Shown here: in pieces, positions 6,182-52,953 of the stretch
How the letters are laid out: the number at the start of each line of letters is the position of its first letter
Numbering within the stretch: the first letter of the stretch is position 1
Assembly (NCBI RefSeq): GCF_020694005.1
Contig: NZ_CP073013.1
Span: forward strand, 2,614,578-2,678,577
Length of the DNA: 64,000 nt
Source of the DNA: Marinomonas profundi
Lineage (GTDB): Bacteria; Pseudomonadota; Gammaproteobacteria; Pseudomonadales; Marinomonadaceae
Reading direction: 5' to 3'
Notes under the pieces: generated by a model
The model's input: the letters and a program-made list of their open reading frames with translations, nothing else
The model's database searches: none
Told to the model about the DNA's origin: nothing
Translations under genes and position numbers: made by a program

Positions 6182-9100
6182 TTATATCAGATTTCTTAAT
6201 TCACGAATAGCGACAGTGATCATCGCCAACGTTAATTCACTTTCTGTTTTTATTTCGCTGAACGTTGCTCGATAATGCTTGATACTGTCATTATTCGATT
6301 CGCGCCAATGCGCCAGGCGTTGCTCTAATTTTTTGATATCAGGGCTAGACTGTATAACTTCCTGAGTGAGGGTGCGCAGACTGTTGTCTACTTCGTCACC
6401 AAGCCCACCTTTTGCACGACGCTGCCACATATCGTCAGCGGGTAGTTCACTGACTCTATGGCGTAACCAATGCAGTTCTAGGTCCATTTCAAGCGCAAAG
6501 TAGGTTTGAGCCACATCCAACACTTCGGTTTCGGTATTAGTCGCAACACGAATAATGTCTAATCCGTAGAAGAGGTAGTGAAGAGACGACAATCTTTCCG
6601 CTATTTCGGCTGGAATGTTGTGCTCAACCAAGCGAGTGGTAATGTCGGCCAAGTGCGCTTGACTGGATTCCGTCAGAATGGCTTGCATGTTGGCGCTAAT
6701 AATATCGACACCAGGTTTGTAGGTGTCTTTTAGGCGCTGAATGGACAAGCTTTCACGGGTGTTACGCAACAACCAGAGCGTGGCGCGTTCTAATAATCCT
6801 TGGATTCGAATCAGTAGACCGTTTAACACCGAGTTTTCTACGGTGAAGTCTAGGCCGTTAATGGCGTCCCAAAGAGCGGGAATAGCAAAAATGTCTTCGG
6901 CGGCCATGTAGGCTCGTACGACATTCAACGACGACGCACTGGTTTCCTCTTGCATATAAGTGCTAAAGGTTGGTCCCATGCGGTTGCCAAGGTTGTTCGT
7001 CACGTGTCCGGCGATGATTTCTTGAATCAGCGGATGTGACGCCATTTGGCCGTCGAAGTGTTTGGTCAGCTGGGTGGGGAAGTATTCGTTGATTTGTGTG
7101 GTTAAATCCACATCGTCACCAATACCATCTTCGACCAACTGCTCAGACAGTTTGATTTTAGAATAAGCCAATAACACGGAAATTTCGGGGCGGGTTAAGC
7201 CTAGCCCTTTGTTTAAGCGTTTCTTGATTTGCGCATCGCTAGGCAAGTATTCAATTTCACGGTTTAAGCGACCTTCGCGTACCAGTGATTGAATTAAACG
7301 CCAGTGATCGGCCAAGCGTTCAGGTGCTTGTGCGTTGGCCAAAGACAAAACATGGCTTTGGCCAAGGTTGTGGCGCAACACAAGGCTGCCCACTTCATCG
7401 GTCATTTCAGCCAGCAAGCTGTTGCGTTGCTTCTCGGTTAGATCGCCGTTTTCAACCACGCGGTTAAGCAGGATCTTGATGTTAACCTCGTGATCCGAGC
7501 TGTCGACACCCGCCGAGTTGTCAATCGCGTCAGTGCTAATTAAACCGCCTTTTTGAGCAAATTCAATTCGGCCTAACTGTGTAAACCCTAGGTTGCCACC
7601 TTCGCCAACGATTTTGCAGCGTAGCTCTTTGCCATTTACACGCAGTCCGTTATTGGCACTGTCGCCGGCATCGGCATGAGATTCTGTATCCGATTTCACG
7701 TAAGTACCGATACCGCCGTTCCACAGTAGATCAACCGGGGCTTTTAGAATTGCGTTGATCAAATCGGTTGGTGCCATGGATTTGACATTGCCTTCAATAC
7801 CCAACGCTTTACGGATGTCAGCGTTGATCGGAATGGATTTCGCAGAACGATTGAAAATACCGCCGCCTTTGGAAATCAGCTCTTTGTTGTAATCTTCCCA
7901 AGAAGAACGAGGCAACTTGAACATACGTTCACGTTCCACGAAAGAGGTTGCCGCGTCGGGTGTTGGGTCGATGAAAATGTGCATGTGGTTAAACGCAGCC
8001 ACTAGCTGGATGTGTTTAGACAACAGCATGCCGTTACCAAATACGTCGCCTGCCATGTCGCCAACGCCAACGGTGGTGAAGTCAGTGGTTTGGCAATCAA
8101 TGCCAATTTCTTTGAATTGACGTTTAACCGATTCCCAAGCGCCACGAGCGGTGATGCCCATTTTTTTATGGTCGTAACCATTGGAGCCGCCAGACGCAAA
8201 CGCATCGCCTAACCAGAAGTTGTATTTTGCTGAAATGCTGTTGGCTAAATCGGAGAAAGTTGCCGTGCCTTTGTCTGCTGCTACCACCAAGTATGGGTCG
8301 TCTTCGTCGTAACGTAATACCGACAGAGGTGGAACCACTTCGTTTTGTACTAGGTTGTCGGTAATGTCGAGCAAGCCGCTAATGAAGGTGGTGTAGCAAT
8401 GGATTACTTCTGCTTGCACTTCTTCACGGGAGGCGTTCTTTTTCAATTGCTTGGCAACAAAGCCGCCTTTGGCGCCAGACGGTACGATAACTGCGTTTTT
8501 GACCATTTGAGCTTTAACAAGACCCAATACTTCGGTACGGAAATCTTCCATCCGATCGGACCAACGAAGACCGCCACGGGCGACTTTACCGCCACGCATG
8601 TGAATACCTTCAACCCAAGGCGCATAAACGAAAATTTCGAATTTCGGTCTTGGTAGTGGTACCGCTGGAATCAGTGAAGGATCCAGTTTGAAAGACACAT
8701 AGTCTTTGACTTCGCCTTCAGCGCCCGCTTGATAGAAGTTGGTTCTTAGCATGGCTTGAATCACTGACAAGTAGTGTTTCAAAATGCGGTCTTCATCTAG
8801 ATTGGCGACCTGATCCAATTCTAGCTCGATTTTTTCAAGCAGTTTGTGGACTTTATCGTCACGCTTAGCGTCTTGGCTTGGGTCGAAGCGTTGCTCGAAT
8901 AGTTGCACCAAAAGACGGGCGATGCCGGCGTTTTTTTCTAAGGTTTGCTGCATATATTGCAACGAGAAAGGCACTTGTAATTGCGTCAAGTACTTAGTCA
9001 AAGCGCGTAGCATGGTGACTTGGCGCCATGTTAAAGAAGCACTGAGGACTAGGGCGTTAAAGCGATCATTTTCGACGCGACGGCGGAAGACCTGATTAAA

Positions 9101-10999
9101 CGCGTCTTGGAAAGCTTCGCGCTGGGCGTTTTTCTCAAGGTTAACATCGGCGTCAACACTGATGGCAAACTCAACCACCCAAGTGTTGGTGATGCCGTCG
9201 CCATTGTGGTCAAGTTCATAGGGACGGGCTTCTAACACGCGTAAGCCCATGTATTCTAATATTGGCAATACATCGGATAAAACTAAGGTTGTGCCCGCGC
9301 CATAGACTTTGAAGAAGTAGTTGTTTTTAGCCTGACCGACTTGACGGTAAATGTGCGTTGAGGTGTCGCCTTCGCCGGCTAATTGGCTCAAACGCTCGAT
9401 GTCTAATACCGCCGCGTTAGGGGAGAAATCTTCGCGGTAAGCGGCGGGCAAATAAGGCACGTAATCATTGAACAGAAGATTGCCGCTTTCTTCGCCATGG
9501 CTTTTATGAAGAGCGTTAAGCAGCTTGTCTTCCCAAGAGCTCATGGCGTCTTGCATCTTACGTTGAATGTCTTCTACGTCGATGGTTGGGCTGTTTTTAG
9601 GGTCAGCAATTTGAATGGTGAAATTGACTCGAGCCAAGACCAGCTGAGAAAATTGCACATTGAATTCAGAGCTGGTGCCATTGCAGGCGCTCATTAGAAT
9701 GTCTTGCATTTTCATGCGCAGTTCTGTGTTGTAGCGATCGCGTGGCACGTAAACCAAGGCATTGAGGAAGCGACCGTAAATGTCTTTGCGTAGGAAAACG
9801 CGTAGCTGACGGCGCTCTTGAATGGCAAGAATGCTTTCGATGGTGCTAAACAGTTCGTCTACCGGCGCTTGTAGCATTTCGTCACGAGGGTAGCTGTTAA
9901 GAATGTGCTTTAAGTTTTTTCCCTTGTGGCTGCTTGGGTCCACATTGGCTTTTTCGACAATGACATTGAGCTTTTTACGCAGTAGTGGAATGTCTTGCAA
10001 ACGGGCGATGTAAGCGGCAGAAGAATACAGGCCGAAGAAGCGCCACTCACCAATCACATTGCCTTTTTTGTCAAAGCGTTTGATGCCAAGGTAATCAAGA
10101 TGAACAGGGCGATGAACTGTCGAAACCGCCGTCGACTTGGTTAGAATGAGGATGTTGTTGCTATCAACGGCGAGCTTGGCAAGATTGTCTTGTAAAACGA
10201 TGTCACGTTTGACTTTTTTGTCGTTAATGTCGCGGAATGTACCCAGACCTGAGCCTTCCACCAATTTAAGATGCGTCTCATTGCCCTCGACCGCAAGATC
10301 ATAGGCGCGAAAACCGATAAAGGTGAAATGGTCGTTAGCGACCCAGCGCAAGAAATCCAGAATCTCTTGGTGTTCTTCATTGCCTTTCAAGTGCGCTAAT
10401 TGCTCTGACTCTTCGATGATGTTGCTTAATCTGGTTTTCATCGTTGGCCAATCCGTCACGGTCTTTTTGACATCGACTAGACTATCAAGCAGCTCTTCTT
10501 TAATTTCGTCTAGCAAGTTGATGTCTGACAAACGGTCAATTTCAAAGCGCATCAAGGCTTCATGAGAGTTTGATTCAAGGTTAATGCCTTGTAGCTCGCC
10601 TTTCTTGTTGCGTTCCACTGGCACCATTGGGTGAGAGGTCATGTGAATAGTATGGCCAAGACGTACTAGCGCCATATTAAAAGACGAGACAAGGAAAGGC
10701 ATGTCGTCGGTTAAAATTTCAATAACGGTGTGGGTTGATTGCCAGCTGTGTTCTTCATAGTTGGGGTTGTAAACACGAACTTTTGGCTGGTGTGCTGGGC
10801 GTTGTTGTAAAAAGTCCCACAAGCAGACAATCGTGCCGTAAAGGTTTTCTATGGATTCATTAACCAAGTCTTCCGTTAGCGAGTCCTGGAAGTAAAGCTG
10901 GGCAAGTTGAATCAAGTGGTTTGCTTCGGGGGCGTTGAAGTGTTCGTTGATTTCTACTTCAACGCGTTCGATTAATTCGTTTTTTTTATGATCAGTCAT
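6182..10999 (-). CDS. gdhB: NAD-specific glutamate dehydrogenase, large (GDH-180 type)
   Basis: Oxidative deamination of glutamate to 2-oxoglutarate and ammonia with NAD, a catabolic enzyme that in Pseudomonas is induced by arginine. The 1605-residue length matches the GDH-180 class (about 1600 aa), far larger than the 450-aa hexameric enzymes. The conserved catalytic core lies in the middle: the R-G-G-L-R-W-S-D-R motif near residue 820, the glycine/lysine-rich V-P-S-G-A-K-G-G-F about 30 residues later, and the dinucleotide-binding region with G-V-G-D-M-A-G-D-V-F-G-N-G. The long N-terminal part contains ACT-like regulatory folds in this family (known, not directly visible). It is transcribed divergently from argR, which in Pseudomonas activates gdhB. 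Start ATG at 10999 is followed by a lysine-rich opening. Confidence 0.95.
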   Translation of the reverse strand: MTDHKKNELIERVEVEINEHFNAPEANHLIQLAQLYFQDSLTEDLVNESIENLYGTIVCLWDFLQQRPAHQPKVRVYNPNYEEHSWQSTHTVIEILTDDMPFLVSSFNMALVRLGHTIHMTSHPMVPVERNKKGELQGINLESNSHEALMRFEIDRLSDINLLDEIKEELLDSLVDVKKTVTDWPTMKTRLSNIIEESEQLAHLKGNEEHQEILDFLRWVANDHFTFIGFRAYDLAVEGNETHLKLVEGSGLGTFRDINDKKVKRDIVLQDNLAKLAVDSNNILILTKSTAVSTVHRPVHLDYLGIKRFDKKGNVIGEWRFFGLYSSAAYIARLQDIPLLRKKLNVIVEKANVDPSSHKGKNLKHILNSYPRDEMLQAPVDELFSTIESILAIQERRQLRVFLRKDIYGRFLNALVYVPRDRYNTELRMKMQDILMSACNGTSSEFNVQFSQLVLARVNFTIQIADPKNSPTIDVEDIQRKMQDAMSSWEDKLLNALHKSHGEESGNLLFNDYVPYLPAAYREDFSPNAAVLDIERLSQLAGEGDTSTHIYRQVGQAKNNYFFKVYGAGTTLVLSDVLPILEYMGLRVLEARPYELDHNGDGITNTWVVEFAISVDADVNLEKNAQREAFQDAFNQVFRRRVENDRFNALVLSASLTWRQVTMLRALTKYLTQLQVPFSLQYMQQTLEKNAGIARLLVQLFEQRFDPSQDAKRDDKVHKLLEKIELELDQVANLDEDRILKHYLSVIQAMLRTNFYQAGAEGEVKDYVSFKLDPSLIPAVPLPRPKFEIFVYAPWVEGIHMRGGKVARGGLRWSDRMEDFRTEVLGLVKAQMVKNAVIVPSGAKGGFVAKQLKKNASREEVQAEVIHCYTTFISGLLDITDNLVQNEVVPPLSVLRYDEDDPYLVVAADKGTATFSDLANSISAKYNFWLGDAFASGGSNGYDHKKMGITARGAWESVKRQFKEIGIDCQTTDFTTVGVGDMAGDVFGNGMLLSKHIQLVAAFNHMHIFIDPTPDAATSFVERERMFKLPRSSWEDYNKELISKGGGIFNRSAKSIPINADIRKALGIEGNVKSMAPTDLINAILKAPVDLLWNGGIGTYVKSDTESHADAGDSANNGLRVNGKELRCKIVGEGGNLGFTQLGRIEFAQKGGLISTDAIDNSAGVDSSDHEVNIKILLNRVVENGDLTEKQRNSLLAEMTDEVGSLVLRHNLGQSHVLSLANAQAPERLADHWRLIQSLVREGRLNREIEYLPSDAQIKKRLNKGLGLTRPEISVLLAYSKIKLSEQLVEDGIGDDVDLTTQINEYFPTQLTKHFDGQMASHPLIQEIIAGHVTNNLGNRMGPTFSTYMQEETSASSLNVVRAYMAAEDIFAIPALWDAINGLDFTVENSVLNGLLIRIQGLLERATLWLLRNTRESLSIQRLKDTYKPGVDIISANMQAILTESSQAHLADITTRLVEHNIPAEIAERLSSLHYLFYGLDIIRVATNTETEVLDVAQTYFALEMDLELHWLRHRVSELPADDMWQRRAKGGLGDEVDNSLRTLTQEVIQSSPDIKKLEQRLAHWRESNNDSIKHYRATFSEIKTESELTLAMITVAIRELRNLI

Positions 11000-20563: not shown

Positions 20564-21547
20564 ATGAATAAGGTGTTTTTTGCGTTGGGTGTTTCTGTGT
20601 TGTCACCCTTGGCTTTGGCCAAACCCGTTATAGCGACCAGTGTTAAGCCTGTTTCTATGATTGTCGCTGCGATTGCGGGCGATAAGGCAGAGATCCAACA
20701 AATTGTCTCGAGCACCGCATCGCCTCATGATTTTGCGATGCGTCCTTCAGATTTAAAGAAAATCATTAATGCCGATACCGTGGTTTGGGTAGGCGAGTCG
20801 TTAGAAGGTTTTTTGGAAAAGCCGCTTGAGAATGCTGGCAAAGAAAAATCTTCCATTGAGTGGTTGGCGCTAGAAGGTATGAAGCTGCATAACTTTGCTC
20901 AAGAGCACGACGACCATGAACCTCATGCTGGCGAACATCATGACGAGCACGCAGCCCATGCTGGCGAACATCATGACGAGCACGCAGCCCATGCTGGCGA
21001 ACATCATGACGACCATGAAGGTCACGATCATACCGGTATTGACCCGCATGTATGGCTTTCGCCAGATAATGCTTTAGTGTTAGCAAAAGCGGTGACAGTG
21101 CGTTTGGCTTCTTTAGATTCGGCAAATGCGGCGTATTATCAAGGTAATTTAGCGGCCTTTGAAAAAGGGCTTAGTGCTAAAGATGCCGAAATACGTCAAG
21201 CGTTGAATAAGGTAAATACCGTACCTTATATTGTGTTTCATGACGGCTATAGCTATTTTGAACAGCATTATGGCTTGCAAAATGCGGGTGAAATTACCGT
21301 TAGCCCAGAACGTAAGCCGGGTGCGAAAAAAGTCGCTGAAATTCGTCGTGAAATTGAAGAGCACAAAGTGCAGTGTGTGTTCAGTGAGCCGCAATTTAGT
21401 CCCGCTATCGTGACTACCTTGCTGGAAGGCTCTAACGTAAAAACAGCGTCTTTGGACCCATTGGGTGGCGAAGTGAAGATGGGCAGCAATGCTTACTTTG
21501 CATTTTTAGACAATTTGAGCGGCCAATTCCTTAGCTGCTTAAGATAA
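20564..21547 (+). CDS. znuA: zinc ABC transporter substrate-binding protein ZnuA
   Basis: Periplasmic zinc receptor of the cluster A-I binding-protein family. The signal peptide ends near L-A-L-A (residue 19). Zinc-site features are the first ligand His55 in S-P-H-D-F-A-M-R-P, the D-P-H-V-W-L-S-P motif after the acidic loop, and the third ligand region H-D-G-Y-S-Y-F. Residues about 114-153 form a histidine/aspartate/glutamate-rich loop built of near-identical 11-residue repeats; such loops are thought to gather zinc. The usual znuC and znuB partners are not next to it: kdsD follows. A Zur-like palindrome sits just upstream. Confidence 0.93.
   Translation: MNKVFFALGVSVLSPLALAKPVIATSVKPVSMIVAAIAGDKAEIQQIVSSTASPHDFAMRPSDLKKIINADTVVWVGESLEGFLEKPLENAGKEKSSIEWLALEGMKLHNFAQEHDDHEPHAGEHHDEHAAHAGEHHDEHAAHAGEHHDDHEGHDHTGIDPHVWLSPDNALVLAKAVTVRLASLDSANAAYYQGNLAAFEKGLSAKDAEIRQALNKVNTVPYIVFHDGYSYFEQHYGLQNAGEITVSPERKPGAKKVAEIRREIEEHKVQCVFSEPQFSPAIVTTLLEGSNVKTASLDPLGGEVKMGSNAYFAFLDNLSGQFLSCLR
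20924..21012 (+). repeat. 33-bp tandem repeat encoding the ZnuA His-rich loop
   Basis: Two full and one partial (23-base) copies of a 33-bp unit starting CATGCTGGCGAACATCATGA, identical at DNA level (20924-20956, 20957-20989, 20990-21012). Each adds 11 residues with four histidines. In-frame, so copy-number change would alter loop length without frameshift. Confidence 0.9.
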
Positions 21548-48412: not shown

Positions 48413-49084
48413 GTGCATATTGAACCTGGCGTCGTTGATGGCGCAAAAATAGTGTTAAGTTACGCGACAGCGTTAGCGGCCTTTGGCTTTTCTGCCAAAG
48501 CATCTGTTGAAATGATAAAAAAGCATGGGCTAATGTCGTTAGTCAGTCGTAGTGCATTAACAACGCTTTTTGTCTTTGCTTTTTTTGAATTGTTGCCTCA
48601 TCACGCAGTTGGCGTGTCGGAAGTGCATCTCATATTAGGCTCGACGTTATTTCTTATCTTTGGCCCTGCGGCGGCGTCTATCGGTTTGTTCTTAGGTTTG
48701 TTGGTTCAAGGCGTGTTCTTTGCGCAATTCGACCTTCCTCAGTACGGGATGAACGTCACCACCTTGTTGTTGCCCTTGTTTGCGATGTCAGTGGTTGCGC
48801 GTCGTATCATTACCGACAATACCGCCTATGTTGATATTTCCTATAAGCAGGCATTGCAGTTGTCTTTAACTTATCAAGGTGGCATTGTCGCTTGGGTGGC
48901 TTTTTGGGCATTTTATGGACAAGGTTTTGGCGCGGAAAACTTAGCGTCTGTGGCAACCTTTGGCGTGGCTTATATGAGTGTTGTGCTTATCGAACCTGTT
49001 TTGGATCTTGCTGTTTTAGCAGGGGCGAAGAGCCTACATCGTTTTAAACATTCTGCTTTGTTTGAAGCGCGTTTGTTTAATTAA
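48413..49084 (+). CDS. cbiM: CbiM-like cobalt transporter permease, stand-alone
   Basis: Integral membrane S-component of an ECF-type cobalt importer, 223 aa with about six to seven hydrophobic spans. The protein opens Met-His-Ile-Glu, and in CbiM the N-terminal Met-His is needed for metal binding. GTG start with GGAGG 7 bases upstream. The B12 riboswitch upstream supports cobalt rather than nickel. The usual CbiN, CbiQ and CbiO genes are absent next to it; it ends in a terminator. It may work alone, as some S-components do, or share an energising module encoded elsewhere. Confidence 0.78.
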   Translation: MHIEPGVVDGAKIVLSYATALAAFGFSAKASVEMIKKHGLMSLVSRSALTTLFVFAFFELLPHHAVGVSEVHLILGSTLFLIFGPAAASIGLFLGLLVQGVFFAQFDLPQYGMNVTTLLLPLFAMSVVARRIITDNTAYVDISYKQALQLSLTYQGGIVAWVAFWAFYGQGFGAENLASVATFGVAYMSVVLIEPVLDLAVLAGAKSLHRFKHSALFEARLFN

Positions 49085-49106
49085 TCTATTTTAAGCACTG
49101 TTCAAA

Positions 49107-49135
49107 TGCCCACTTTGCTTGCCGCGAAGTGGGCA
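49107..49135. terminator. terminator between cbiM and the LysR gene
   Basis: 9-bp stem TGCCCACTT/AAGTGGGCA, followed by CTTCTT; probably serves the convergent pair. Confidence 0.6.
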
Positions 49136-49145
49136 CTTCTTATGA

Positions 49146-50027
49146 CTAAAACTCTCTGCGTCCATGCTCACTAACAAATTCTAAAAAGGCTCGATTGGCT
49201 TTTGACAGATAACTGTCTTTGCGCCAAGCAATACCAAGGTCTAACCAGATTGCTGGCTCAAAGGGGCGAGTAATGAGTTCATCATCGTCTTCAATCACCA
49301 TGGCGAGTAGGGTGGAGATGCCAAAGCCTTGCTGTGTAATGGATTTGATCAGGGGGATTAAGTTGGTCTCGAAGCCAATTTTTGGCGTTCTGTGATAGTC
49401 TTTGGCGAGCTTGTCGACGATGCGACGATGAAAATAGCCTTCTTTGAACATCACCAATTCTTCATCAAAGAACCGCTCTGGCGAGATGCTTTTTAGTTGA
49501 CTAAAAGGATGGTCTGTCGCCACGGTCACCAGCATTTCTTCTCGAATCAGCGCTTGTGTTTCTAAGCCGTCGGGAAGGGTTTCAGCGACAATCACACTGA
49601 GATCCAATTCGCCATTCTCTAGCATCTTTTGCAATTGCCAAGTCCCGCCTTCGATGACTTTGAGGGTAATGGTGGGGTATTTATGATGAAACGCCATCAG
49701 AATCGGCGGAAAATAATAAGAGCCTAACATACTCGGAATGCCCACTCGCACTTCGCCTTGGCTCAAGCCCTTCAGCTCGCTCATTTCCAACAAAGCATCA
49801 TCAGTTGCCTGAATGATTTTTTCGGCATGAATCAGCAATTTTTTGCCTTCGTCAGTCAGACCCACATTACGGTCAGCTCGATGAATTAAGGTCAAGCCTA
49901 AATCCATCTCCAGTTTTTTAATCGCCATACTCACCGCTGGTTGGGCAACGCTAAGTTGTTGCGCAGCTTTGGTAAAACTCTCGGTTTTTGCAATGGCAAT
50001 AAAATAACGCAAGGGTTTGATGTCCAT
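49146..50027 (-). CDS. LysR-family transcriptional regulator (intact copy)
   Basis: LysR-type regulator, 293 aa: winged helix at residues 1-60 (F-T-K-A-A-Q-Q-L-S-V-A-Q-P-A-V-S) and an effector domain from about 90. The ATG at 50027 has AAGG upstream. Its first 40 codons and promoter are repeated at 51481-51669, next to the MFS gene, so it was probably once divergent from that gene. An 8-bp inverted repeat ATCAATAA/TTATTGAT (50026-50033, 50064-50071) spans its own start and may be its operator. Confidence 0.88.
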   Translation of the reverse strand: MDIKPLRYFIAIAKTESFTKAAQQLSVAQPAVSMAIKKLEMDLGLTLIHRADRNVGLTDEGKKLLIHAEKIIQATDDALLEMSELKGLSQGEVRVGIPSMLGSYYFPPILMAFHHKYPTITLKVIEGGTWQLQKMLENGELDLSVIVAETLPDGLETQALIREEMLVTVATDHPFSQLKSISPERFFDEELVMFKEGYFHRRIVDKLAKDYHRTPKIGFETNLIPLIKSITQQGFGISTLLAMVIEDDDELITRPFEPAIWLDLGIAWRKDSYLSKANRAFLEFVSEHGRREF

Positions 50028-50096
50028 CAATAAGCCTTATGGATTGGATAAGATGGATATATTTTATTGATTATTTTGCTGGGCGTATAGTGTCGG
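49908..50096. repeat. 189-bp direct repeat, copy A
   Basis: Aligns without gaps to 51481-51669 (offset 1573 bases), with about 24 mismatches counted by eye. It covers the first 40 codons of the LysR gene and its promoter. Confidence 0.85.
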
Positions 50097-50184
50097 CTTA
50101 GTGTGTTGTTTTATTCATGTAAGTATTGGTGTCAGATGAAAATAAAGCTTAATTTTCCGCTACCTTGGCTTGTTAAACGCCGAC

Positions 50185-50517
50185 CTAAGCCTTGGAGTTA
50201 CTAGCATACTCAATGGCCAGAAGTATAAGGATCTTTAATGTGAAATCGCCAACCTGCCGCTGGTAAACCTGTAGCGAACTAGACAAACTGATTTTAAGCT
50301 CCGAAACATCTTTTTCACTCATACCACCAGGAATCGGCGCGTCAATACTTTGCGCCACTACTTCTTTAGACTCCTTGATGAGGGGCATTATAGCTGAGAC
50401 TGTCTGCGTTACTGTTTCTTCTGAAAATCCTCGATCAATAAGGGATTCACGAAGCGCTTTCTCGATTTCAAGGTTATTTCGTATATCCCGACTCGGGAAC
50501 TCCACAATTTTGCTCAT
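50185..50517 (-). CDS. small protein of unknown function (110 aa)
   Basis: Not recognised. The protein opens M-S-K-I-V-E-F-P-S-R, is acidic and mostly helical by appearance, and ends in a hydrophobic segment (F-T-L-K-I-L-I-L-L-A-I-E-Y-A) near residues 90-104. The frame extends to 50550 but the ATG at 50517 fits better; no strong RBS is seen. It lies, with the next gene on the same strand, in the 1.4-kb segment between the two LysR repeats, probably imported together. Confidence 0.5.
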   Translation of the reverse strand: MSKIVEFPSRDIRNNLEIEKALRESLIDRGFSEETVTQTVSAIMPLIKESKEVVAQSIDAPIPGGMSEKDVSELKISLSSSLQVYQRQVGDFTLKILILLAIEYASNSKA

Positions 50518-50592
50518 ATCGATACCGTTTAACGCCTGTAGCTGCGGCAAATTGCGAGCGCAGCGAGTAATTTGTCCGACAGACTACACTTG

Positions 50593-50925
50593 TTACGAGT
50601 CATTTGGCTCACCAGGCAGTGGATTTCGAGACCGTAGCCCCCAAATAGGTTTTCCGTCTTCAGATGCTCTTGCGCCAATCTTCAACAAAAGACGTTTCGT
50701 GGTTTCCTCATCAGCTCCGATTACGTGCTGAAGACGATCAAGCGAGCGCCATTTATGCTTGGGATGATTCAGCATTTCCGTGAGCATTTCTATCTGCGGG
50801 CTCTCTTGCCGATCAACTTCCTTTTTGCGCAGATATTCCGCGACGATTTGAACCGATATCGTAGCAACGGAACCAATTACAGCACCGCCCAACCCGATCA
50901 ACGCTATGAGTATCTTCTCAGTCAT
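50593..50925 (-). CDS. small membrane-anchored protein with winged-helix-like tail (110 aa)
   Basis: Not recognised as a named family. An N-terminal hydrophobic span (about residues 4-28, Gly/Ala-rich) is followed by a basic linker and a soluble tail with K-W-R-S-L-D-R-L-Q-H-V-I-G-A-D-E-E-T-T-K and I-W-G-L-R-S-R-N-P-L-P-G, which looks like a small helix-turn-helix fold. Start at the ATG 50925 rather than 50964. Cotranscribed candidate with the downstream 110-aa gene (75-base gap). Confidence 0.5.
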   Translation of the reverse strand: MTEKILIALIGLGGAVIGSVATISVQIVAEYLRKKEVDRQESPQIEMLTEMLNHPKHKWRSLDRLQHVIGADEETTKRLLLKIGARASEDGKPIWGLRSRNPLPGEPNDS

Positions 50926-51480
50926 GACTATGGCCCGTAACATTTTAATAGTGCGCATGCGCATCTACACTGTTTTTAATTTCCATATAAATCCCTATAA
51001 AAAACTGATTTTATGGCACTTTTTAATTTTTCCCACAGGCTGGTTAACTGGAAAAACGAGCATGCATGTTATTTCATTTATCCACAGCACGTTATTTCGG
51101 CTCTGTAAATTCTTATCCATTGATACTAAAAGACTTTCTAACTTGCTGCCAGTACAAATGCGCTAAATCATGACTGTTTTTTAGACAAACCGTGCCAATA
51201 ATGAGCGACCACAAAAATAAACGGCATACTTGTACCGTTTTTTATCAATTATCCACAAGGGGCGTGATGGGTTCTGTGGGAATACAAAGTGAATTCCGCG
51301 TCGGGCTGAAGCCGCGACCTACAGGTGAAGGCTGCATTATTTCAATAGTGGATAGTGCCGAAGAAGAGATTAACCCTATCCTCGGTCTTCCCTTGAGACA
51401 AAAAGGGAAGGGGCTTGGTGATTAGTCAACATTACCTTGTGCGCTTGAAATCAGCCCGATGCGTTTTTTTCACAAAATGA
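50926..51480. other. AT-rich non-coding part of the insert with two DnaA boxes
   Basis: No convincing gene here. TTATCCACA, a perfect DnaA box, occurs at 51078-51086 and 51249-51257 in the same orientation. A REP-like half element follows at 51299-51322 and a small hairpin (CTTCCCTT/AAGGGAAG) at 51387-51410. A few short open frames look like chance. Confidence 0.5.
51299..51322 (-). repeat. REP-like half element
   Basis: On the minus strand TGTAGGTCGCGGCTTCAGCC then CGAC; matches the inner arm of the 12569-12660 element except two bases. Shows a dispersed repeat family in this genome. Confidence 0.65.
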
Positions 51481-51600
51481 CTCCAGTTTTTTAATCGCCA
51501 TACTCACCGCTGGTTGGGCAACGCCAAGTGGTTGCGCGGCTTTGGTAAAACTCTCGGTTTTTGCAGTGGCAATGAAATAACGCAGCGGTTCGATGTATAT
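51481..51600 (-). pseudogene. LysR remnant (first 40 codons)
   Basis: Reads P-L-R-Y-F-I-A-T-A-K-T-E-S-F-T-K-A-A-Q and on to M-A-I-K-K-L-E, matching the intact LysR at 49146-50027. The start codon is lost (ATG to ATA) and the frame stops at the left end of the copy, where it meets unrelated insert sequence. Confidence 0.85.
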
Positions 51601-51669
51601 CAATAATTTTTATGGATTTGATAAGGTAGATATATTTTATTGATAAAACGTCAAGGCGTATAGTGTCGC
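51481..51669. repeat. 189-bp direct repeat, copy B
   Basis: Ungapped match to 49908-50096. The 8-bp inverted repeat ATCAATAA (51599-51606) / TTATTGAT (51637-51644) is kept intact, so a LysR binding site may still sit in front of the MFS gene. Confidence 0.85.
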
Positions 51670-51726
51670 CATACTGTGTTTTGTATTTGAGTCTTATCTG
51701 GGTCTTATTGGGAAGTGATTCCCGCG

Positions 51727-51760
51727 GAGTGTTGTTGTGATTGGAGTGTTGTTGTGATTG
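51727..51760 (+). repeat. 17-bp tandem duplication over the MFS start
   Basis: Two copies of GAGTGTTGTTGTGATTG. Each carries GGAG-like sequence and a GTG; the first GTG is closed by a stop after six codons, so the second (51754) is the working start. Confidence 0.85.
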
Positions 51761-52953
51761 AAGTGGGCAGTTCTGTATTTTGGCGGGGCACGGTGGCGCT
51801 TATTATTGGCTCTTTTATGATTTTTGCCAATGTCTATGTGACGCAACCCTTGTTGCCGATGATCGCCAACGAGTTTTCCATTAGTCCGTTGCAAGCCAGC
51901 GCTAGTTTTACCATTACCACGCTGACACTGGGGATTTCTTTGCTCTTCTATGGCCCGATTTCAGATGCCTTGGGCCGCAAAGGCATTATGGTGATGACCA
52001 TGGTCGGTATCACTGTCACCACTTTTTGTTTGTCCTTGGTGCAAAGCTACGAATCGTTATTGGCATTGCGGGCTTTACAAGGTTTCTTTTTGGCTGGGTT
52101 GCCGGCGATTGCGGTGGCGTATTTGGGTGATGAATACACGCCAGAAGCCTTGCTGGTCGCGGTTGGTTTGTATATTAGCGGTAACACACTAGGCGGCATT
52201 GGCGGTCGTTTGATTGGCGGCTTTGTTGGTGAATGGTTAGGGCGTTCGGCGACCTTTGGTGTGATGAGCGCGATTAGCCTGATTTGTTTATTGGCCTTTT
52301 TCTTGCTGTTACCAAAATCTCAACATTTTGAACCGAAACCTTTACGTGTTGGCCATATTCTAATGAACATGAAAGGCCATTTGCAGAATCGCCGTTTGCT
52401 CACGTGTTATCTGATCGGCGGTTTTAGCTTTTTCATTTTTATTAATCAATACAGCTACGTGACCTTCGTTTTAGAAGCGGCGCCTTATAATCTAACCGCT
52501 AAATACGTTGGCTTACTCTTTTTAACCTACTTGTCTGGCACATTGGGTTCCGCTATTTCCGGAAAACTGGCCAAACGCTGGAGCCAGCCCAATATCATGG
52601 TATTAGGCACTTGTATCTTTATGTTGGGTTCTTTGGTTACTTTGGGGGATTCTTTACTGGCGATTATCTCGGGCTTATTGATTAACAGCTTTGGTTTCTT
52701 TTTATGTCATTCTACGGCCAGCGGGTTTGTCAGCCGTAACGCGAAGCACGCCAAAGCCAGTGCGTCTTCTTTGTATTTGGTGTTTTACTACTTAGGCGCC
52801 AGCTTGGGTGGCTTTTATCTTGATCCATTTTGGCAAGCCAATGGCTGGACTGGCGTTATTCTTGGCTCTTGGTTGGTGCTTGGTGCGGTTGTTTTAGCGG
52901 GCATGAGCTTGATTCGAGACAGCAAACGTACAAGGCTGTCGGTTCTTGATTAG
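51754..52953 (+). CDS. MFS transporter (drug/arabinose efflux type, 12 TM)
   Basis: Major facilitator superfamily protein, 399 aa with about twelve hydrophobic spans. The family loop 2-3 motif is seen as Y-G-P-I-S-D-A-L-G-R-K near residue 67, and R-A-L-Q-G-F-F-L-A-G near 103. Start GTG at 51754 with GGAG 7 bases before it, rather than the longer frame from 51715. Resembles YnfM-type exporters; substrate unknown. Its promoter side is the duplicated LysR segment, so control by the LysR at 49146-50027 is likely. Confidence 0.85.
   Translation: MIEVGSSVFWRGTVALIIGSFMIFANVYVTQPLLPMIANEFSISPLQASASFTITTLTLGISLLFYGPISDALGRKGIMVMTMVGITVTTFCLSLVQSYESLLALRALQGFFLAGLPAIAVAYLGDEYTPEALLVAVGLYISGNTLGGIGGRLIGGFVGEWLGRSATFGVMSAISLICLLAFFLLLPKSQHFEPKPLRVGHILMNMKGHLQNRRLLTCYLIGGFSFFIFINQYSYVTFVLEAAPYNLTAKYVGLLFLTYLSGTLGSAISGKLAKRWSQPNIMVLGTCIFMLGSLVTLGDSLLAIISGLLINSFGFFLCHSTASGFVSRNAKHAKASASSLYLVFYYLGASLGGFYLDPFWQANGWTGVILGSWLVLGAVVLAGMSLIRDSKRTRLSVLD

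Follow-up and report, generated by a model that had tools for sequence, protein, structure and literature searches.

Two unrelated gene cassettes in a probable degenerate mini-integron of Marinomonas profundi, and the many copies of attI leaders in its genus

The two small open reading frames which we have studied in Marinomonas profundi, ORF1 and ORF2, are very probably independent integron gene cassettes. They lie in a degenerate mini-integron which has kept its intI-attI leader and lost intI. As a pair they are ordinary, two unrelated cassettes; the part worth following is the multiplication of attI-headed islands in one genus. The window, the whole stretch of DNA which was analysed, has 64,000 nucleotides (contig NZ_CP073013.1, positions 2,614,578 to 2,678,577); the features of the island are given in Table 1. 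An earlier note on this DNA had described two frames of 110 amino acids side by side on the minus strand, and both are indeed intact. They look like real genes from their sequence; the ORF1 protein is identical to its relative in locus L046, and their 333 nt differ at four sites, all silent.

Table 1. Features of the island and of its borders, in window positions
Feature	Positions	Strand	Remarks
Left copy of the 200-nt direct repeat (87%) which brackets the insert	49908–50107	-	5′ end of the intact LysR gene together with the DNA upstream of it
Insert	50108–51480	none	1,373 nt, between two copies of the LysR 5′ end; unmatched in 29 of 29 relatives examined
attC stub of cassette 2 (putative)	50151–50178	-	GTTTAAC box (50178–50172) and left arm, as read from the sequence
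ORF2, gene of cassette 2	50185–50517	-	ATG at 50517, TAG at 50185; 110 aa, acidic, predicted helical
attC of cassette 1	50527–50598	-	Score 21.6 in a purpose-built scorer; lies between ORF1 and ORF2
Cassette 1	50533–50940	-	Similarity with L046 spans the unit; BLAST span 50530–50952, the extra bases being in the recombination cores
ORF1, gene of cassette 1	50593–50925	-	ATG at 50925, TAA at 50593; 110 aa; a GxxxG membrane helix followed by a winged helix (low-confidence model)
intI-attI leader without intI	50938–51266	-	329 nt; ends in the attI core GCGCATGCGCACTATTAAAATG^TTA
Dispersed repeat CCTGTAGGTCGCGGCTTCAGCCCGACG...	51286–51320	-	Borders the island where intI is broken; 18 further partial matches genome-wide
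Second copy of the LysR 5′ end with its upstream DNA, truncated	51481–51680	-	Adjoins the MFS gene

The earlier note had also placed the pair in an insert and found that its genes look like accessory ones, and the other genomes of the genus bear this out. The MFS protein was compared with 48 of them; 45 matched and 30 loci were taken, that of M. profundi included. In all 29 other loci (of the 45 matching genomes) a nearly full-length LysR match is found directly beside the MFS gene and nothing matches the insert: among the genomes examined, the island between LysR and MFS is present in M. profundi only. In the window the MFS transporter gene comes beyond the second LysR copy. The nearest relatives of the two LysR copies are not the same: compared with L109, the 64-nt piece which lies upstream of the intact gene has 98% identity and the piece on the MFS side 77%. 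This suggests the arrival of foreign DNA by recombination rather than a target duplication; the island probably came in through the LysR 5′ end. The partial matches of the dispersed repeat cover from query positions 1–21 to 1–35. A search of the window for tRNA genes gave none, and an Rfam scan of positions 49000–52000 had no match at E up to 1. Elsewhere in the window, at 20901–21020, there is a 33-nt direct repeat with three copies in register.

The end of the leader, GCGCATGCGCACTATTAAAATGTTA, was taken as the attI core. The core in the window, ATTAAAATGTT, is identical in 10 of 11 positions to the attI2 core AATAAAATGTT, as the latter is given in PMC12901181. The leader recurs in the genome of M. 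profundi at 2013766–2014095, with 84% identity. Beside this copy, and running the opposite way, is an integron integrase fragment (TIGR02249 positions 13–53; residues 5–92), and downstream of it there are genes with attC-like sites. Of the 20 places in the genus where an integrase passes the TIGR02249 cut-off, 16 have a leader copy listed immediately next to them and divergent, a pairing which was read from the tables. We consider for this reason that the leader is the intI-attI region; its putative attI site is recognised by homology. The integrase places without a paired leader are those in G015 and G021 (both with zero leader matches), G040 (none listed there) and G024:C59, where the integrase is found at the contig start.

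In L002 the leader copy contains a CTGT-N8-ACAG box, which we take to be a LexA site; it is decayed in the leader of the window. A promoter scan of the latter found no consensus promoter match, so that expression from the leader can only be supposed: ORF1 and ORF2 would be read, if at all, as a short operon starting there. On the plus strand of the window an open frame at 50906–51166 resembles, by eye, the integrase frames of L063 (in G008) and L066 (in G026), which continue without a stop through the leader and far upstream, over 442 and 438 codons. It may be that an overlapping frame is conserved in the leader.

Cassette 1 consists of one gene and one attC, bounded by GTT recombination points. 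The same unit is found with other neighbours in L046, a Natronospirillum MAG, 98% identical over 423 nt. The agreement runs from GTTACG to GGCGTTA; beyond these points the two sequences are unrelated, save for a similar attI-like core on the left, and the gene which comes after the cassette is a different one. This copy, cut at two recombination points, is a more independent proof of the boundaries of cassette 1 than the attC score. Over 60.5 kb of the window, with both strands scanned, no background hit scores as high as 19. The score of the site between the genes (50598–50527) is not independent, since this site was among the known ones used to tune the scorer. The hairpin energy of this site is unexceptional (z −1.48; 16 of 200 shuffles were equally good). 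Single attC hits can also be false, as is seen in L005, where an unrelated gene contains a site with a score of 20.6.

ORF2 appears to be the gene of a second cassette: it starts 15 nt past the recombination point which follows cassette 1, and it is followed by what we read as an attC stub. The right half of this attC is missing and no full site was scored. To judge from the anatomy and the boundaries, the IntI then present would have inserted each cassette by attC x attI recombination. The genome of M. profundi (G000, one contig, completeness 100) has no TIGR02249 match over the cut-off: no intact integron integrase, as a complete integron would have, was found in it; two partial matches (48 and 28 bits) fall below it. 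With one attC-like site scored, the island is also outside the CALIN class of IntegronFinder 2.0, which has at least two attC and no intI.

The earlier note saw in the two genes a possible two-gene module, and this part of it has to be given up. Both proteins were compared with 60 loci, of which 17 have a relative of ORF1 (L041, L042 and L046–L060; 3.2–8.3 kb long). ORF1 matched the loci which came from its own searches and ORF2 matched only its own locus; no co-occurrence of the two genes in other genomes was found, which within the reach of these searches is the outcome that the note itself had named as refuting its module. The remote-homology search which the note proposed left both proteins below the Pfam and NCBIfam cut-offs, and a PADLOC scan for known defence families gave none at E up to 1. 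A true module of defence or toxin-antitoxin type, with its parts in neighbouring cassettes, would agree with two adjacent genes of similar size on the same strand, one product being acidic (ORF2, pI 4.99) and the other slightly basic (ORF1, pI 8.07). We find it very unlikely, given the attC-like site between the genes, the absence of ORF2 from all 17 loci with relatives of ORF1, a relative of ORF2 (L105) without ORF1 and the lack of any PADLOC match. Two separate cassettes, each with its own gene, is the reading which we follow below.

Relatives of ORF1 were found in 15 loci of named records, with 35–100% identity. They come from Gammaproteobacteria, Betaproteobacteria, Bacteroidetes, Acidobacteria (Thermoanaerobaculia, Bryobacteraceae), Planctomycetes (Phycisphaeraceae) and Actinomycetota, a list which may be inflated by binning errors, since most of these records are MAGs. 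A spread over several phyla is as expected of mobile cassettes. An attC-like site with a score of at least 17 lies directly 3′ of the gene in 5 of the 17 other ORF1 loci (L046, L052, L053, L058 and L059, the last two being one strain) and is absent there in 12; scores below this threshold were found in L060 (15) and L047 (11). In L042, for which we have the site list only, two attC-like sites lie upstream. With its own genome included, ORF1 was counted in 1 of 143 relatives and in 6 of 369 members of the class, 3 of which are believed. Besides the own genome the class search gave five hits: L041 and L042 are believed and were recovered by the family HMM; L043 and L044 lie inside long frames of unrelated genes and are missed by the HMM at E 0.1; L045, which gives no match with the HMM at E 0.1, was also rejected. 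ORF1 was found neither in plasmids nor in phages, its alignment had no relative among viral contigs, and the protein gave one weak hit in PHROGs (E 0.081).

A longer reading of ORF1, with 123 amino acids from position 50964, begins inside the attI core; the usual start of the family, MSES or MTEK, favours the start at 50925. The alignment of 15 rows has 25 invariant columns, among them G14 and G18 (the GxxxG motif), W59, R60, K77-R78, G84-A85-R86, S88-E89 and W95. When scanned against Pfam it gave weak matches, HTH_36 in 3 of the 15 rows (best E 0.075) and DUF1844 in one (0.0054). Those in PHROGs are also weak: three of the 15 rows match the holin family phrog_1350 (best 0.0093), and two match phrog_36022, which has no assigned function (best 0.0019). 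The only sequence match in the PDB, the anti-CRISPR protein 9wa8, has E 0.2 and is not believed.

A membrane anchor with a winged-helix-like tail, as the earlier note described ORF1, fits our results on a low-confidence model (pLDDT 63.5, pTM 0.43). The N-terminal segment reaches a Kyte-Doolittle mean of 2.35 in its best 19 residues. In structural alignments of residues 39–100 the listed matches are mostly winged-helix proteins (best Z 6.8, tied), and a Foldseek search of the PDB with the model found nothing at E 0.001 (best 0.13). A winged helix held at the membrane, with conserved basic residues, is our best reading of this model. Such a fold would be shared with the winged-helix regulators of MarR, IclR and BirA type, from which ORF1 differs by its N-terminal membrane-helix tether and by having no Pfam model above the cut-off. 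Judging by the flanking charges, the single membrane helix would run N-out/C-in and could pair through GxxxG. This would place the winged helix on the inner side of the membrane, for binding to nucleic acid or to another protein; most likely ORF1 works alone.

Among the tied fold matches a Zalpha domain comes first (4kmf, Z 6.8) and several more are in the list, so one may think of a membrane-bound protein which binds Z-DNA or Z-RNA. We find this reading of ORF1 highly improbable, as the winged helices of FapR, PurR, MepR and IclR type come within 1 Z unit of that match. In what we take to be the Zalpha contacts, ORF1 would keep only the wing tryptophan; by eye, Lys and Leu stand in the places of Asn and Tyr. 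For the membrane-held winged helix our first guess, a tentative one, is a protection against phage or other incoming DNA. A regulator of the stress response comes second and is rather doubtful. In any case ORF1 represents a family of small membrane proteins, with a probable winged helix, which is found in records of several phyla and has no family model in the four libraries searched.

ORF2 is best explained as a separate small protein, predicted as three helices by a single-sequence model. The last helix (residues 68–109, pLDDT 68.7) had been considered hydrophobic in the earlier note. It is only moderately so, with a best 19-residue Kyte-Doolittle mean of 1.14; the acidic character also claimed there is confirmed. 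ORF2 has one clear relative, in L105, 40% identical over 98 residues. It occupies an ordinary chromosomal site between two unrelated genes, where a single attC-like site was scored, at 15.2 and on the opposite strand. Counting the own genome, ORF2 was found in 1 of 143 relatives, 1 of 369 class members and 3 of 398 members of the phylum, 2 of them believed; a weak hit in G728 (E 0.009) failed on recheck (E 0.80). No relative of ORF2 was found in viral contigs or plasmids, and none of the L105 protein in phages or plasmids.

Leader matches are present in 44 of the 48 genomes of the genus. They amount to 212 places (table sum), up to 12 per genome, a count in which copies are missed, since at most 15 candidates per genome were scored, and a few may appear twice. 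The 20 integrase places over the TIGR02249 cut-off are found in 18 of the 48 genomes; that of G006 has an internal stop and that of G015 covers positions 57–315 only. With about ten attI leaders for each such integrase gene (212 to 20), this is a genus for testing whether one integrase serves many capture sites. In the order, 9 of 194 genomes match, 8 of the genus and 1 other, with three candidates scored per genome: the leader is rare outside the genus in this sample.

We studied 29 leaders, from the own genome and from 20 stretches of four single-contig genomes; 34 leader places were counted in these five genomes (4+7+10+6+7), of which a subset was retrieved. From 34 core-like matches, 3 were excluded from the consensus and 5 from the tree and later counts, being partial, on the opposite strand or due to chance; one excluded match (L097, 423) is probably a decayed leader. 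The loci L005, L091, L094 and L101 hold several leaders each, so the downstream stretches overlap and the 29 are not independent. All of them end at the attI core or a close variant (GTCA or GTTG in two cases) and are followed by differing DNA. An attC-like site with a score of at least 17 is found within 4 kb downstream in 24 of the 29; the best-scoring site is on the strand of the leader in 19, and in 5 there are sites on the other strand only. The other five leaders have no such site, so some may be empty or decayed. The density of attC-like sites per kb is 0.40 downstream of the leaders and 0.16 upstream, and 0.05 in the window away from the insert. Within 1.6 kb a complete intI was found for 2 leaders, a fragment for 1 and none for 26.

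Two candidates were rejected in this survey. A core element of 113 nt inside the leader, suggested by hits which cover query positions 109–221, was dropped as a separate element, since in the copies which were aligned a fast-changing stretch of about 75 nt separates this part from the attI end and interrupts the alignment. Integrase remnants upstream of most leaders were an artefact: the query proteins read through the leader or were another gene.

Cassettes have been reported to enter genomic sites other than attI (PMC12901181 and PMC12444791), and those of the window might have been dropped at a secondary, attG-like site, with an upstream stretch that merely resembles a leader. We give this almost no credit: the 329 nt upstream are shared with the leader of the same genome which keeps an intI fragment, they match leaders adjacent to intI in other species, and most of the leaders studied have an attC-like site downstream.

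The dispersed leader copies may be the scars of whole integrons which arrived separately and each lost intI, an ordinary decay to which we would give an even chance. The genus has many partial intI matches, and a fragment persists beside one of the leaders studied; G008 and G046 hold two integrase places over the cut-off each; L085 and L100, from two species, have a neighbouring gene in common. In the maximum-likelihood tree several leaders of different genomes group together: the copies of G018 and G039 are mixed, likewise those of G009 and G013. No genome has its copies in one clade, and 8 of the 26 inner branches are well supported. The leaders cluster nevertheless by genome (8 label changes, the mean of the shuffles being 17.3 and 0 of 200 as low), a result which separate arrivals would produce only if the copies had converted one another. 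Also against decay is a stretch of G013 (L094, G013:C1:3603700-3616000), where four leaders with the same direction lie within 12 kb, ending at 1823, 4015, 7603 and 9853, each followed by differing DNA.

A distributed integron is the other explanation, which we put forward tentatively: the attI platform would have multiplied, and one integrase under SOS control would serve in trans up to about a dozen attI-headed islands dispersed over the chromosome, between which cassettes move. In G009 the islands at 1.18, 1.41 and 1.44 Mb have three cassette stretches in common, with 99% identity. Of their six ends, five coincide with a GCGTTA point and one falls within an attC; the DNA beyond differs. An integrase at work on several islands would leave such a pattern. 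Against this, no integrase match was found in G009 at E 1e-15, and the exchange is therefore a past one or due to a gene since lost. A leader can also occupy the position of a cassette: a shortened one is found just behind an attC-like site, inside a cassette array of the own genome, in L003 and in L005 (12586–12892, G000:C1 about 2020.6–2020.9 kb). In such a place, as in L003, the leader with its attI may even move in the manner of a cassette and give rise to new islands. Between the shortened leader of L005 and the other leader of the array, positions 8393–10778 presumably hold IS66-type transposase genes. The frames which the other islands of this genome carry at L005 6118–7052 and 12095–13399 and at L006 9561–10099 look like those of toxin-antitoxin pairs, of a GNAT acetyltransferase and of a DUF1801-like protein.

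Clusters of attC sites without integrase (CALIN) are well known; the three origins put forward for them are off-target insertion, loss of intI and rearrangement (PMC8618304). About half of the Xanthomonas genomes carry CALINs away from the integron, according to PMC12444791. IntegronFinder 2.0, as described in PMC9024848, does not by default look for attI, for which there is no search outside class 1, and calls a CALIN from two attC up. Islands of this kind would thus escape standard annotation, and that of M. profundi, with one attC, would by default go unreported (PMC9024848). No description of multi-copy attI-headed islands was found in the literature on multiple attI, CALIN with attI, dispersed integrons, Marinomonas integrons and integron cassettes in connection with defence or attG, subscription journals being mostly uncovered; this is weak evidence of their novelty.

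An integron is normally described with one attI beside its integrase, and arrays without integrase are seen as debris or secondary insertions. The island of M. profundi resembles a sedentary chromosomal integron by its attI leader, its attC cassettes and its genes of unassigned function on one strand. It differs by having no integrase gene in cis, none found in its own genome, and two cassettes only. It also resembles the cassette arrays without a nearby intI, which can be mobilised in trans according to PMC12444791; unlike them it has kept its own attI leader, with one intact attC. A third likeness is found in the attI-type (delta-attI) gene cassettes of mobile integrons, where attI stands inside the array beside attC sites (compare L003 and L094). 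In these cassettes, following PMC12901181, a piece of attI replaces the attC behind the gene, whereas in the island a leader of at least about 330 nt stands before the genes.
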